This document shows positions 28,397 through 32,081 of a stretch of 42,912 nucleotides of DNA, piece by piece. The notes below the pieces were generated by a model that was not told where the DNA came from, searched no databases, and saw only the letters and a list, made by a program, of their open reading frames with translations. Each line of letters opens with the position of its first letter. The stretch's first letter is position 1. The position numbers and the translations under genes are program-made. Source of the stretch: Salinivenus iranica. Lineage in GTDB: Bacteria > Bacteroidota > Rhodothermia > Rhodothermales > Salinibacteraceae. The stretch covers positions 1-42,912 of the forward strand of contig NCRB01000062.1 in NCBI GenBank assembly GCA_002894665.1, read 5' to 3'.

Positions 28397-29554
28397 ATGA
28401 GCAACAAAGGCCGTGTGCTCGTCGCCATGAGTGGCGGCGTCGACTCCTCCGTCACCGCCGTGCTGTTGAAAGAGCGCGGCTACGACGTCGTCGGTCTCAC
28501 CATGAAGACGTGGGACTACTCCACCAGTGGGGGGCAGGGCGACAAGGAAGTGGGCTGCTGCTCCATCGAGTCGATGAACGACGCCCGCGTGGTGGCCACC
28601 ACGCACGACTTCCCGCACTTCGTGGTTGACCTGCGCGACGAATTTGGCGACTGGGTCATCGAGCGCTTTACCAGCGAGTACTTATCCGGCCGCACGCCGA
28701 ACCCCTGTGTGCTCTGCAATACCCACATCAAGTGGGACGCCCTGCTCCAGCGGGCCGACGACCTGGACTGCGAGTACATCGCCACCGGGCACTACGCCAA
28801 CGTCCGGTACGACGAGGACCGGGAGCGCTACGTGCTGAGCCGCGGCCTCGACCGCAACAAGGACCAGAGCTACGCCCTCTGGGGCCTGCCGCAGGAGCAC
28901 CTGGCCCGCTCCATCTTTCCGCTCGGCGAGTACGAGAAGCCCGAGATCCGCGAAATGGCCGCCGACTTTGGGCTCGACAACGTGGCCGACAAGCCGGACT
29001 CCTACGAGATCTGCTTCATTCCGGACAACGACTACCCGCGCTTCCTGAAGGACCGGGTCGACGGGCTCGAGGAGGAGGTGGACGGCGGCGACTTTGTGCT
29101 GAGCGACGGCACCGTGGTGGGCGAGCACGACGGCTACCCTTTCTACACCATCGGCCAGCGGCGCGGCCTCGACCTGGCCCTCGGCGAGCGGGTGTACGTA
29201 ACCGACATCGATCCCGAGACGAACACGATTACGGTGGGGCCGAAGGACGAACTCATGGAGCAAACCCTGACGGCCCACGAGATTAACCTCGTGAAGGAGC
29301 CGACGATTGAGGAGGAGCGGCCCGCCTGGGGCACCATTCGCTACAACGACGACGGGGCCGGCTGCCTCGTGTGGCAACCCGACGACGACACGCTCAAGGT
29401 GGCCTTCGCGGAGCCGCGACGGGCCATCACGCCGGGGCAGAGCGTGGTTCTCTACGACGGGGACGACGTGCTGGGGGGCGGATGGATCCACGAGGTCGGG
29501 GCGGCGGACGCCGAGACGGACGCGGCGGAATCGACGGTCCCGGCGCACGCGTAG
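28397..29554 (+). CDS. mnmA: tRNA-specific 2-thiouridylase MnmA
   Basis: A 385-residue enzyme that thiolates U34 of tRNAs for Lys, Glu and Gln. PP-loop SGGVDSS (12-18). Catalytic cysteines are Cys104 in TPNPCVLCNTHIKW and Cys206 in DSYEICFIPDNDY, matching E. coli Cys102 and Cys199. Other motifs: ATGHYANVRYD, GLDRNKDQSYALWGLPQEHL and YPFYTIGQRRGLDLALG, the last being a hallmark of the central domain. A beta-barrel C-terminus follows, with a short acidic tail (AADAETDAAES) typical of halophiles. The 204-bp spacer shared with ridA holds the promoters. Confidence 0.96.
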   Translation: MSNKGRVLVAMSGGVDSSVTAVLLKERGYDVVGLTMKTWDYSTSGGQGDKEVGCCSIESMNDARVVATTHDFPHFVVDLRDEFGDWVIERFTSEYLSGRTPNPCVLCNTHIKWDALLQRADDLDCEYIATGHYANVRYDEDRERYVLSRGLDRNKDQSYALWGLPQEHLARSIFPLGEYEKPEIREMAADFGLDNVADKPDSYEICFIPDNDYPRFLKDRVDGLEEEVDGGDFVLSDGTVVGEHDGYPFYTIGQRRGLDLALGERVYVTDIDPETNTITVGPKDELMEQTLTAHEINLVKEPTIEEERPAWGTIRYNDDGAGCLVWQPDDDTLKVAFAEPRRAITPGQSVVLYDGDDVLGGGWIHEVGAADAETDAAESTVPAHA

Positions 29555-29730: not shown

Positions 29731-31164
29731 ATGGAACGTACGGACGTAACGCGGATCGACGACTTCACCTGGGAAATTCCGGAGTCGTTCCGAGAGGACA
29801 TGCGCGTTCCGGTGCGCATTATCGCGAACGAGGACCTCATTGGCGACATCCTTGGCGGGGACGCCATCGGACAGGCCATCCAGACGGCCATGCTGCCGGG
29901 ACTGGTGGGGCACCTTGTGGTGATGCCCGATGTGTACAGCGGGCAGGGGGCGCCGGTCGGCATCGTCGCGGTGTCGAAGTGGCCGGTCGGGAGCATTGCG
30001 CCCGGGGCCATCGGGCACGACATCAACACGGGCGTGCGACTGCTCGGCTCCGATATTGACCTGGAAGAGGCACAGGGCAACTTCGAGGTCCTGGCCGATG
30101 CCCTGAAGGAGCACATCCCCAGTGGCACCGACGCGGAGGGCAGTCTGCAAATCGGACGCAGCGAGGTGGACCACGTGGCACAGTCCGGCGCGCAGTGGGC
30201 CCTGCGGAAGGACATGGCCCAGCAGGACGACCTGGTGCGGGCGGAAGAGGGCGGGCGCCTCAACGACGCGGACCCGGGCAAGGTGAGCGACACGGCCCGG
30301 GCCCTGGGGGCACAGCAGCTCGGCACGCTGGGCGGGGGCGAGCACTTCATTGAGATCAACGCGGTGGAGGAAGTATTCAACCGCGCCGCCGCCGTGACCA
30401 TGGGCTTGAAGGAGGGCACCCTGGTTGCCCAGATTCACTGCGGCTCGCGGGGCTACGGCCGCCAGGTGTGCGCCGACTACATTGAGAAGTTTCAGGAGGC
30501 GGCCCCCTCCTACGACATGTCGTTCCCGCACCCGAACCTCGCCTGTCTACCGCTCGAGTCGAGCGAGGCCGAGGACTACATGGGGGCCATGCGGGCCGCC
30601 GCCAACTACGCCTATGCCAACCGCCAGGTACTGGCGCACCGCGTTCGCGAGGTGTTTGACGACGTGCTCGACGGGGCCGGCCAGCGTCTGAAGACGGTGT
30701 ACGACGTGGCCCACAATCTTGGGCAGGTGGAAATGCACCAGGTGGACGGCAAGCAGATGCGCTGCTATGTGCATCGGAAAGGGGCGGCTCGGGCCTTTGG
30801 TCCCGGCACGCCCGGCATCTCGCTGCCGTACCGCGCCCTGGGCCAGCCGGTGCTCGTGCCCGGAAGCATGGGCGAAACCTCGTGGGTCATGCTCGCCACG
30901 CGCGACGCGATGCAGAAGAGCTTCGGGTCGGCCTGTCATGGGGCGGGCCGCACCATGAGCCGCCACGAGGCCAATCACCAGACGGATCCGGTGCTCGACG
31001 AGGAAATTGAGGAGGGGGTCCACGTGCGCTCGGGGGATGGATCATCCTCGGCCGGGGGCGTCAAGGTCAAAGAAAACATTGACGCGGTTGTGGAAACCGT
31101 GGCGGGGGCGCGCCTGGCCAGCAAGGTGGCACGCCTAAAACCCGTGGCGGTGGTACACGGGTAG
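29731..31164 (+). CDS. rtcB: RtcB-family RNA ligase homologue with altered active site
   Basis: A 477-residue protein clearly homologous to RtcB, which joins RNA 3'-phosphate (or cyclic phosphate) to 5'-OH ends using GTP and Mn2+. Conserved: Asp97 (GHDIN), His205 (GGEHFIEI), His236 (QIHCGSRGYG), His328 (DVAHNLGQVE) and the guanylylated His403 (SACHGAGRTMSR). Changed relative to Pyrococcus horikoshii RtcB: the metal-ligand Cys98 position is Thr100 (DINTGVR), GMP-binding Asn202 is Glu204, the GHQG loop is VYSG (68-71), and Lys480 near the C-terminus is His476 (PVAVVHG). The start is the ATG at 29731. It follows mnmA by 176 bp. It may be an atypical ligase, a related capping enzyme or a pseudoenzyme. 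Confidence 0.85.
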   Translation: MERTDVTRIDDFTWEIPESFREDMRVPVRIIANEDLIGDILGGDAIGQAIQTAMLPGLVGHLVVMPDVYSGQGAPVGIVAVSKWPVGSIAPGAIGHDINTGVRLLGSDIDLEEAQGNFEVLADALKEHIPSGTDAEGSLQIGRSEVDHVAQSGAQWALRKDMAQQDDLVRAEEGGRLNDADPGKVSDTARALGAQQLGTLGGGEHFIEINAVEEVFNRAAAVTMGLKEGTLVAQIHCGSRGYGRQVCADYIEKFQEAAPSYDMSFPHPNLACLPLESSEAEDYMGAMRAAANYAYANRQVLAHRVREVFDDVLDGAGQRLKTVYDVAHNLGQVEMHQVDGKQMRCYVHRKGAARAFGPGTPGISLPYRALGQPVLVPGSMGETSWVMLATRDAMQKSFGSACHGAGRTMSRHEANHQTDPVLDEEIEEGVHVRSGDGSSSAGGVKVKENIDAVVETVAGARLASKVARLKPVAVVHG

Positions 31165-31343
31165 CGGGGCTCGATCGCCTCTGTGGGGCGTGCCGGGGCG
31201 GCCCGAACGTTTCGGAAGCTTTACAGGCTGGCGGGGGGCATAAGGACACACGCATTTGCCCTGGCGTTCACTTCTGGACCCGCCGATGACGTTTCGCGTT
31301 GCAGTCAGTTCCTACACTTTCTCACCCGTCTCCCGTTGGATTC

Positions 31344-32081
31344 ATGGCCGAATCGTCGAAAGGACCCCATCTGCTTGTCGTCGAAGATGATAGCGAACTG
31401 AGCACCAGTCTCGTCCTGTACCTGGAATCGGAAGGCTACGAGGTCACGCTGGCGGAAGATGGCACGACGGGCCAGGAAGAGGCCACCCGGCTCCCGGGAT
31501 ACGATCTAATCGTCCTCGACGCCAAACTGCCGGATCGGAACGGGTTCGAGGTGCTCCGGCGGGCGCGCGAGGATGGGGTGCGCACGCCCGTGCTCATGCT
31601 CACCGGCCTGGGCGACCACGAGCACAAGATCCGTGGCTTTCAGGTGGGCGCCGACGACTACCTCACCAAGCCGTTTGAGACGGAAGAGCTGGTTGCCCGC
31701 ATCGACGCGCTCCTGCGCCGCGAAGCGGAGGTCAATGAGGAAGGCGGCGTATTTGAGGTTGGCGGGCTCCGTGTAAACCTCGACACCGAGGACGTCACGC
31801 GCGACGACGAGCCGGTCGACCTTACGGATCTGGAATACAGTCTGTTGGCTTACCTGCTGCGGCGGCGAGGGCGCACGGCCACCCGCGAGCAGATTCTGCG
31901 GGACGTGTGGGACCTGCCGGCGGAAGTGGAGACGCGCACAATCGACCGCCACGTAAATGCCCTGCGGGATGTGATGGATGGGAGCGATGAGGACTCCTGG
32001 CCCATCCAGAGCGTCTACGGAATTGGGTATAAGCTGGAGGGGGCGACGCACAGTGCCCCGGCGGAAGAGGAGGCGGCGTAG
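31344..32081 (+). CDS. OmpR-family response regulator (orphan)
   Basis: A 245-residue two-domain regulator from the ATG at 31344. The receiver has the acidic pair in LLVVEDDSE, phospho-acceptor Asp59 (LIVLDAKLPDRNG), the Thr87 switch (LMLTGLGD) and Lys109 (DDYLTKPF). A winged-helix output domain follows: DLTDLEYSLLAYLLRRRGRTATREQILRDVW and ETRTIDRHVNALRD, ending VYGIGYKLEG. The tail is acidic. No histidine kinase is adjacent; its partner is elsewhere or shared. It is convergent with another OmpR regulator, 13 bp apart. Confidence 0.92.
   Translation: MAESSKGPHLLVVEDDSELSTSLVLYLESEGYEVTLAEDGTTGQEEATRLPGYDLIVLDAKLPDRNGFEVLRRAREDGVRTPVLMLTGLGDHEHKIRGFQVGADDYLTKPFETEELVARIDALLRREAEVNEEGGVFEVGGLRVNLDTEDVTRDDEPVDLTDLEYSLLAYLLRRRGRTATREQILRDVWDLPAEVETRTIDRHVNALRDVMDGSDEDSWPIQSVYGIGYKLEGATHSAPAEEEAA

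Follow-up and report, generated by a model that had tools for sequence, protein, structure and literature searches.

A divergent RtcB paralogue of the Salinibacteraceae with substituted metal- and GTP-binding residues

Can an RtcB protein still be an RNA ligase when its metal-bridging cysteine, its phosphate-binding asparagine, and its guanine-contacting lysine are all replaced? This question is raised by a gene of Salinivenus iranica located at positions 29731–31164 (+) of the window, by which we mean the whole 42,912-nucleotide stretch of DNA that was analyzed. A previous sequence-only reading had offered three roles for its product: a ligase with different metal use, a capping or other nucleotidyl-transferring enzyme, or an RNA-binding pseudoenzyme. 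The open reading frame and its coordinates are correct, and translation yields a protein of 477 residues (P0001) that we refer to as the window protein.

Fold and active-site residues

The window protein matches the RtcB profile PF01139 over its full length (positions 1–426 of 426) with 456 bits against a cut-off of 27 (E 2e-136). Structures are available for three of its relatives, Pyrococcus horikoshii RtcB (PhRtcB; 1UC2, E 3e-121), Thermus thermophilus RtcB, and human RTCB. The AlphaFold2 model, computed for the window protein alone from 64 alignment rows, has a mean pLDDT of 91.2 and superimposes on the GMP/Mn-bound Pyrococcus horikoshii RtcB structure 4dwq over 473 residues (Z 59.1, rmsd 1.6 Å, TM 0.95, 42% identity). 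The pLDDT falls below 50 at residues 408–410, 418–425, and 437–445. A model built from 15 divergent sequences alone reached a pLDDT of 45 and was set aside. According to the profile score and the predicted fold, the window protein is a member of the RtcB protein family, and we file it as such, not as an RtcB ligase.

Residues were mapped on PhRtcB (1UC2), the window number being set against the PhRtcB number. The alignment (A3) comprises 12 of the 22 distinct divergent sequences and 56 other RtcBs, of which 32 were taken from viral contigs and 24 from cells, plasmids, and phages. As the viral rows were retrieved by the patterns G[YF]DINCG or PDxH[QW]GYG, they are biased at Cys98 or His67, and unbiased at Asn202 and Lys480. 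The three replacements proposed from the sequence alone map precisely to PhRtcB Cys98, Asn202, and Lys480. Thr100 (codon at 30028–30030, + strand like all those below) replaces the metal-bridging Cys98, a cysteine in 56/56 other RtcBs, some of the viral rows being biased at this site. Glu204 (30340–30342) replaces the phosphate-binding Asn202, conserved in 56/56, and His476 (31156–31158) the guanine-contacting Lys480, found in all 55 other RtcBs with a letter there (one gap). The proposed change of a GHQG loop into VYSG holds for the histidine: Tyr69 (29935–29937) takes the place of His67 in the PDxHxG loop, His in 56/56 others (viral rows biased at this site). The V and the S are ordinary at their positions, as in human DVHSG. 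Likewise, the statement that each change involves more than one base is true of Thr100 (three), Glu204 (two), and His476 (two), and fails for Tyr69 (one).

The canonical EAPxAY loop (Glu446 to Tyr451) is lost at codons 442–447 (31054–31071). This stretch overlaps the low-confidence segment 437–445 of the model and lies within residues 437–448, where low pLDDT and gaps make the alignment less certain. The additional changes from PhRtcB to the window protein are Tyr70 to Gln72, Thr354 to Ala353, Glu446 to Gly442, Tyr451 to Lys447, and Lys452 to Glu448. Tyr451 is presumably part of the base pocket.

Much of the active site is retained, as the sequence-only reading had recognized for the guanylylated histidine and the metal- or GMP-binding histidines: His403, His205, His236, and His328 correspond to PhRtcB His404, His203, His234, and His329. 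Asp67, Asp97, and Glu208 (PhRtcB Asp65, Asp95, and Glu206) are also present, and Ser384, Glu208, and His403 have nucleotide-binding roles in canonical RtcB. The guanylylated histidine is found in 24/24 genomes encoding the divergent form (G001 being identical to G000, the window's genome, and G025 being read from a second piece).

These features are shared by the relatives of the window protein. Among 47 positions that are invariant or all-but-one in the 56 other RtcBs, 27 are kept in 12/12 divergent sequences. They include the metal ligands Asp95, His203, His234, and His329, together with Glu206, His349-Arg350-Lys351, His404, and Arg408 (PhRtcB numbering); no member departs from the metal His/Asp set or from HRK/Arg408, not even those of genus g9 at 47% identity. 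Conversely, nine of the 47 are lost in at least ten of the 12: His67, Tyr70, Cys98, Asn202, Thr354, Glu446, Tyr451, Lys452, and Lys480. Glu446 and Tyr451 are both lost in all 12 divergent sequences compared, and canonical Lys480 and Glu446 occur in 0/12 (one row is gapped at Lys480 and has a serine in the genome reading). The replacing residues vary across the 24 genomes. The Cys98 site is T in 11, A in 7, S in 3, C in 2, and V in 1; the His67 site is Y in 17, H in 5, and S in 2; and the Lys480 site is H in 20, R in 2, and S in 2. The canonical asparagine is found in 0/24 genomes at the Asn202 site, which is E in 19, A in 2, G in 2, and Q in 1. The two genomes with Cys98 belong to genus g9; they retain this residue, whereas Asp65, Arg238, and the HGAG motif are missing from them.

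Length variants were observed in two genera. The divergent RtcB of genus g3 (L022/L023) lacks about 20 residues equivalent to 424–440 and ends in VVSS, which makes it the most trimmed version at this place. In genus g6 (L024, L031), the G023 copy carries an insertion of about 30 residues near 315–320 and the G025 gene lies in two frames, in assemblies that are both incomplete.

Distribution, ancestry and genomic context

The divergent form was found in 24 of the 27 Salinibacteraceae genomes searched, and the three genomes without it are 62%, 67%, and 85% complete. When a profile of 15 divergent sequences (A1) was run on 195 genomes of the class, the weakest divergent protein scored 762 bits and the next match 523, leaving a clean gap. 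Matches below 523 bits were sorted by score, and part of them were examined residue by residue. Among 296 genomes of the phylum, 12 matches passed E 1e-140: four divergent proteins from the window's genus and eight at no more than 507 bits, whose examined rows are canonical. By this score gap, neither the 195 class genomes nor the 296 phylum genomes sampled yielded a divergent form outside the Salinibacteraceae. As for mobile carriers, the tblastn matches in plasmids (84 records) and in phages (260 records) all stay below 60% identity, and none of 26 viral-contig stretches matching the A1 patterns encodes a relative of the divergent form.

In a tree of 62 rows, from which low-coverage rows were dropped and L001 and L033 left out, the 22 divergent sequences form a single clade with support 100/100 and a stem of 0.82 changes per site. 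The four changes noticed in the window protein thus co-occur as marks of one clade. It groups most closely (98/87) with canonical RtcBs from a different family, encoded in two genomes, and not with the canonical form that the Salinibacteraceae themselves carry. A recent duplication of the family's own canonical gene is disfavored, the two forms lying in separate well-supported clades. Long-branch joining was flagged in the tree for genus g9; the orthology of the g9 genes is independently supported by their shared gene order. Vertical inheritance is the best reading of these data.

Might the gene be a decaying relic, or its substitutions sequencing errors? In agreement with this, 20 of the 47 near-invariant positions differ in one or more of the 12 divergent sequences, and the G025 gene is split. 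However, a 100%-identical protein is encoded in the separate assembly of Salinivenus lutea DBO, Salinibacter altiplanensis AN15 encodes one 84% identical (both are Salinibacteraceae), and open reading frames span the whole RtcB length in eight genera, G025 excepted. Genes 47–100% identical to that of the window, with the same sites changed, are present in other assemblies and genera, which bears out the earlier judgment that error is unlikely. We also estimated pairwise dN/dS by NG86 with our own script; the values are rough, as dS is often near 1. The median for the divergent gene is 0.075 over 76 of 78 pairs from 13 genomes of genera g1 and g5 (two pairs were excluded for a dS above 2). For the canonical gene, it is 0.097 over 21 pairs from seven genomes, one canonical copy (G009) being shorter. 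The divergent gene is therefore under strong purifying selection, about as strong as that on the canonical gene, which speaks against a relic in g1 and g5, and decay or error is extremely improbable.

A second RtcB gene, with canonical residues at the sites examined, was found on contig C54 of the window's genome, a check that the sequence-only reading had proposed. At its metal cysteine, this gene (L045:3785-6835) is interrupted by an intein of roughly 500 residues (NF038162, 1245 bits); archease is encoded some 0.8 kb upstream of the gene (C54:17657-18064). In G001 (L046), whose divergent RtcB is identical to that of the window, the same canonical gene lacks the intein; split matches at the same site suggest inteins in the canonical RtcBs of G008, G010, and G028 too. 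Archease is encoded in 12/12 family genomes with a canonical RtcB and in one of the remaining 15. In the latter, G018, archease occurs with the divergent form, and no canonical RtcB was found; its archease gene lies at a contig edge, beyond which the rest may be missing.

Five genomes that are 98–99% complete (G003, G004, G007, G011, and G015) encode the divergent RtcB as their only PF01139 match, so that it is no back-up to a normal ligase in them. Archease was found in none of these five, and the divergent protein is therefore not a strict archease client.

The gene is embedded in the recurrent order amiC-ridA-mnmA-rtcB-response regulator (the divergent rtcB being meant), which extends to genus g9. 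Upstream in the window is mnmA (28397–29554, +), encoding a tRNA 2-thiouridylase (PF03054, 234 bits) and nearby in 18 of 20 other genomes. Downstream is a response regulator gene with a Trans_reg_C domain (31299–32081, +; PF00072 and PF00486), adjoining in 17 of 20. The suggestion that mnmA hints at tRNA metabolism is weak: the two remaining genomes, which belong to different genera, have no mnmA within about 7 kb of the gene. In 9/9 genomes of genera g2, g3, g4, g5, g7, and g9 that encode the divergent form, a gene for an AFG1-like ATPase (PF03969) lies beside the divergent rtcB on the opposite strand (e.g., L082:8914-10074, L083:9272-10378, and L084:6249-7397). As a functional partner this ATPase is not firm: in g1, the window's genus, it is encoded elsewhere in 11 of 13 genomes and was not found in the other two. 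RtcA was also considered as a partner and rejected. The RNA cyclase family RTC (PF01137) was found in just three of the 27 family genomes, and the rtcA-rtcB repair pair is therefore not general in the Salinibacteraceae.

Predicted activity of the divergent protein

In canonical RtcB, Cys98 ligates both metals, one of them together with His234 and His329 and the other together with Asp95 and His203 (PMC10630183, excerpt). For the human C122A mutant, guanylylation was undetectable and there was no ligation (PMC10944509, excerpt). PhRtcB N202A and K480A are each inactive alone, and archease rescues K480A, not N202A (PMC3973293, excerpt). In human RTCB, the guanine is touched by Glu230, Ser409, and Lys504, and the phosphate by Asn226; human Glu470 makes no contact with N7, whereas its P. 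horikoshii counterpart does (PMC8668186, excerpt). Human Glu470 aligns with PhRtcB Glu446 and with Gly442 of the window protein, the human count being two too high there.

The Cys and Asn sites of the window protein are both substituted and its base pocket is partly lost, the equivalents of Glu206 and Ser409 staying. This combination makes GTP-dependent self-guanylylation very unlikely, judging from the residues. Such a protein would form no enzyme-GMP intermediate and would not ligate by the RtcB route. Its metal site would be reduced, probably to a single ion, if metal is bound at all; without GTP, the remaining metal/RNA-phosphate surface may serve to hold or protect RNA ends that carry a 3'-phosphate or a 2',3'-cyclic phosphate. 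That the metal cluster, His403, and the basic residues stay unchanged even at 47% identity suggests that a function dependent on metal and phosphate has been preserved. We give a probability of roughly 0.6 to the reading that the divergent RtcB is a guanylylation-dead, neofunctionalised "pseudo-ligase" of the Salinibacteraceae with a metal/RNA-end-binding core. It would probably act on RNA otherwise than by ligating. The retention of His403, Glu208, and Ser384, and that of Cys98 in the two g9 genomes, count against this reading.

Alternatively, the protein might be a 3'-5' RNA ligase with a rewired site, in which Glu204 and Thr100 would build a hard-ligand (Mg2+-like) metal site and another NTP, or no base-specific pocket, would be used. 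The fold, His403, Asp67, Asp97, and all the metal histidines are kept in the window protein, the divergent form is the sole RtcB in the five near-complete genomes, and K480A PhRtcB with archease gives about twice as much ATP-dependent product as the wild type (PMC3973293, excerpt). However, no replacement ligand is conserved, since position 100 is Ala in 7/24 and Val in 1/24 and position 204 is A, G, or Q in 5/24. Moreover, N202A is not rescued by archease (PMC3973293, excerpt), which the five sole-RtcB genomes appear to lack. We consider this ligase unlikely. Given the variation at position 204, we also rejected the idea that Glu204 takes over a metal-binding role throughout the clade; in part of it, Glu204 and Thr100 could in principle form a new metal site with oxygen ligands.

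Of the three roles proposed from the sequence, the RNA-binding pseudoenzyme is thus the best fit, given the variable Cys98 site, the mostly missing guanine pocket, and the five genomes without archease. A ligase with different metal use meets the difficulty of Ala100 in 7/24 genomes and of E, Q, A, or G at 204. Capping or another nucleotidyl transfer is disfavored, as it would require guanylylation.

A hydrolytic function also deserves consideration. The RtcB pathway might have been cut to its hydrolytic step, leaving a metal-dependent, GTP-independent hydrolase of RNA ends with 2',3'-cyclic phosphate or 3'-phosphate. The invariant metal His/Asp set and HRK/Arg408, g9 members included, would suit such an enzyme. 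Against it stands the reported GTP dependence of RtcB's cyclic phosphodiesterase step, as the title of Chakravarty and Shuman 2012 has it, and we regard the proposal as rather improbable. On a broader reading, an ancient RtcB could have lost the GTP pocket at the base of the Salinibacteraceae and been retained because it acts on RNA ends with metal and no GTP, by holding, protecting, or hydrolysing 3'-phosphate or 2',3'-cyclic-phosphate termini. We see about an even chance of this GTP-free reading.

Comparison with known RtcB systems

A paralogue without the cysteine, the asparagine, and most of the guanine pocket provides a natural separation-of-function series (T/A/S/V/C at one site, E/Q/A/G at the other) that would show what the RtcB scaffold can do without GTP. 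If the GTP-free reading is true, a natural RtcB lineage has rid itself of nucleotide chemistry altogether. PF01139 is described as "tRNA-splicing ligase RtcB," and a ligase annotation taken over from it would then be wrong for the sole RtcB of several Salinibacter-type species. We found no description of the divergent Salinibacteraceae RtcB in a full-text literature search whose reach extended to few subscription papers.

Other paralogues offer points of comparison. Myxococcus xanthus RtcB3 is said, by the title of the report, to perform 5'-capping, and would be a paralogue with altered activity. The two Entamoeba RtcBs keep all active-site residues and both ligate (PMC8718801, excerpt), and binuclear metal sites on the conserved cysteine are described as universal in RTCB biology (PMC13247085, excerpt). 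In another family of the order, genome G055 encodes a remote RtcB-like protein (L064:1432-2871, −) without the Cys98 and Asn202 residues (GPNNDGMG, GTSHF), in which the C-terminal lysine and AFKN are kept. It is apparently an independent loss in the superfamily, to judge from these motifs, and counts against the uniqueness of the divergent clade. The PrfH-associated RtcB (L187, adjoining prfH) is a distant superfamily paralogue on a very distant branch; unlike the divergent form, it keeps Cys98, Asn202, the EAPEAYK loop, and the C-terminal lysine.

The nearest relatives in the tree (98/87), the RtcBs of G060 and G062 from family f16 (L070, L073), share IHCGSRGYG and an SW pair with the divergent form. 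Unlike it, they are canonical at the catalytic residues examined. The canonical paralogue of the same family (L045/L046) occurs in the same organisms with about 43% identity to the divergent form. It has the complete catalytic set, archease in the genome, in some cases an intein before Cys98, and a place in another part of the tree. In contrast to archease-dependent RtcB, the divergent form needs no archease gene in the genome, although the window's own genome has one. Finally, the window protein has in common with canonical RtcB, the GTP-dependent 3'-phosphate/5'-OH RNA ligase (P. horikoshii PH1602, 1UC2/4DWQ; human RTCB, 7P3B/8ODO), the whole-length fold, Asp95, His203, His234, His329, His404, Glu206, and Arg408, and differs from it by the absence of Cys98, Asn202, Lys480, Glu446, Tyr451, His67, and Tyr70.
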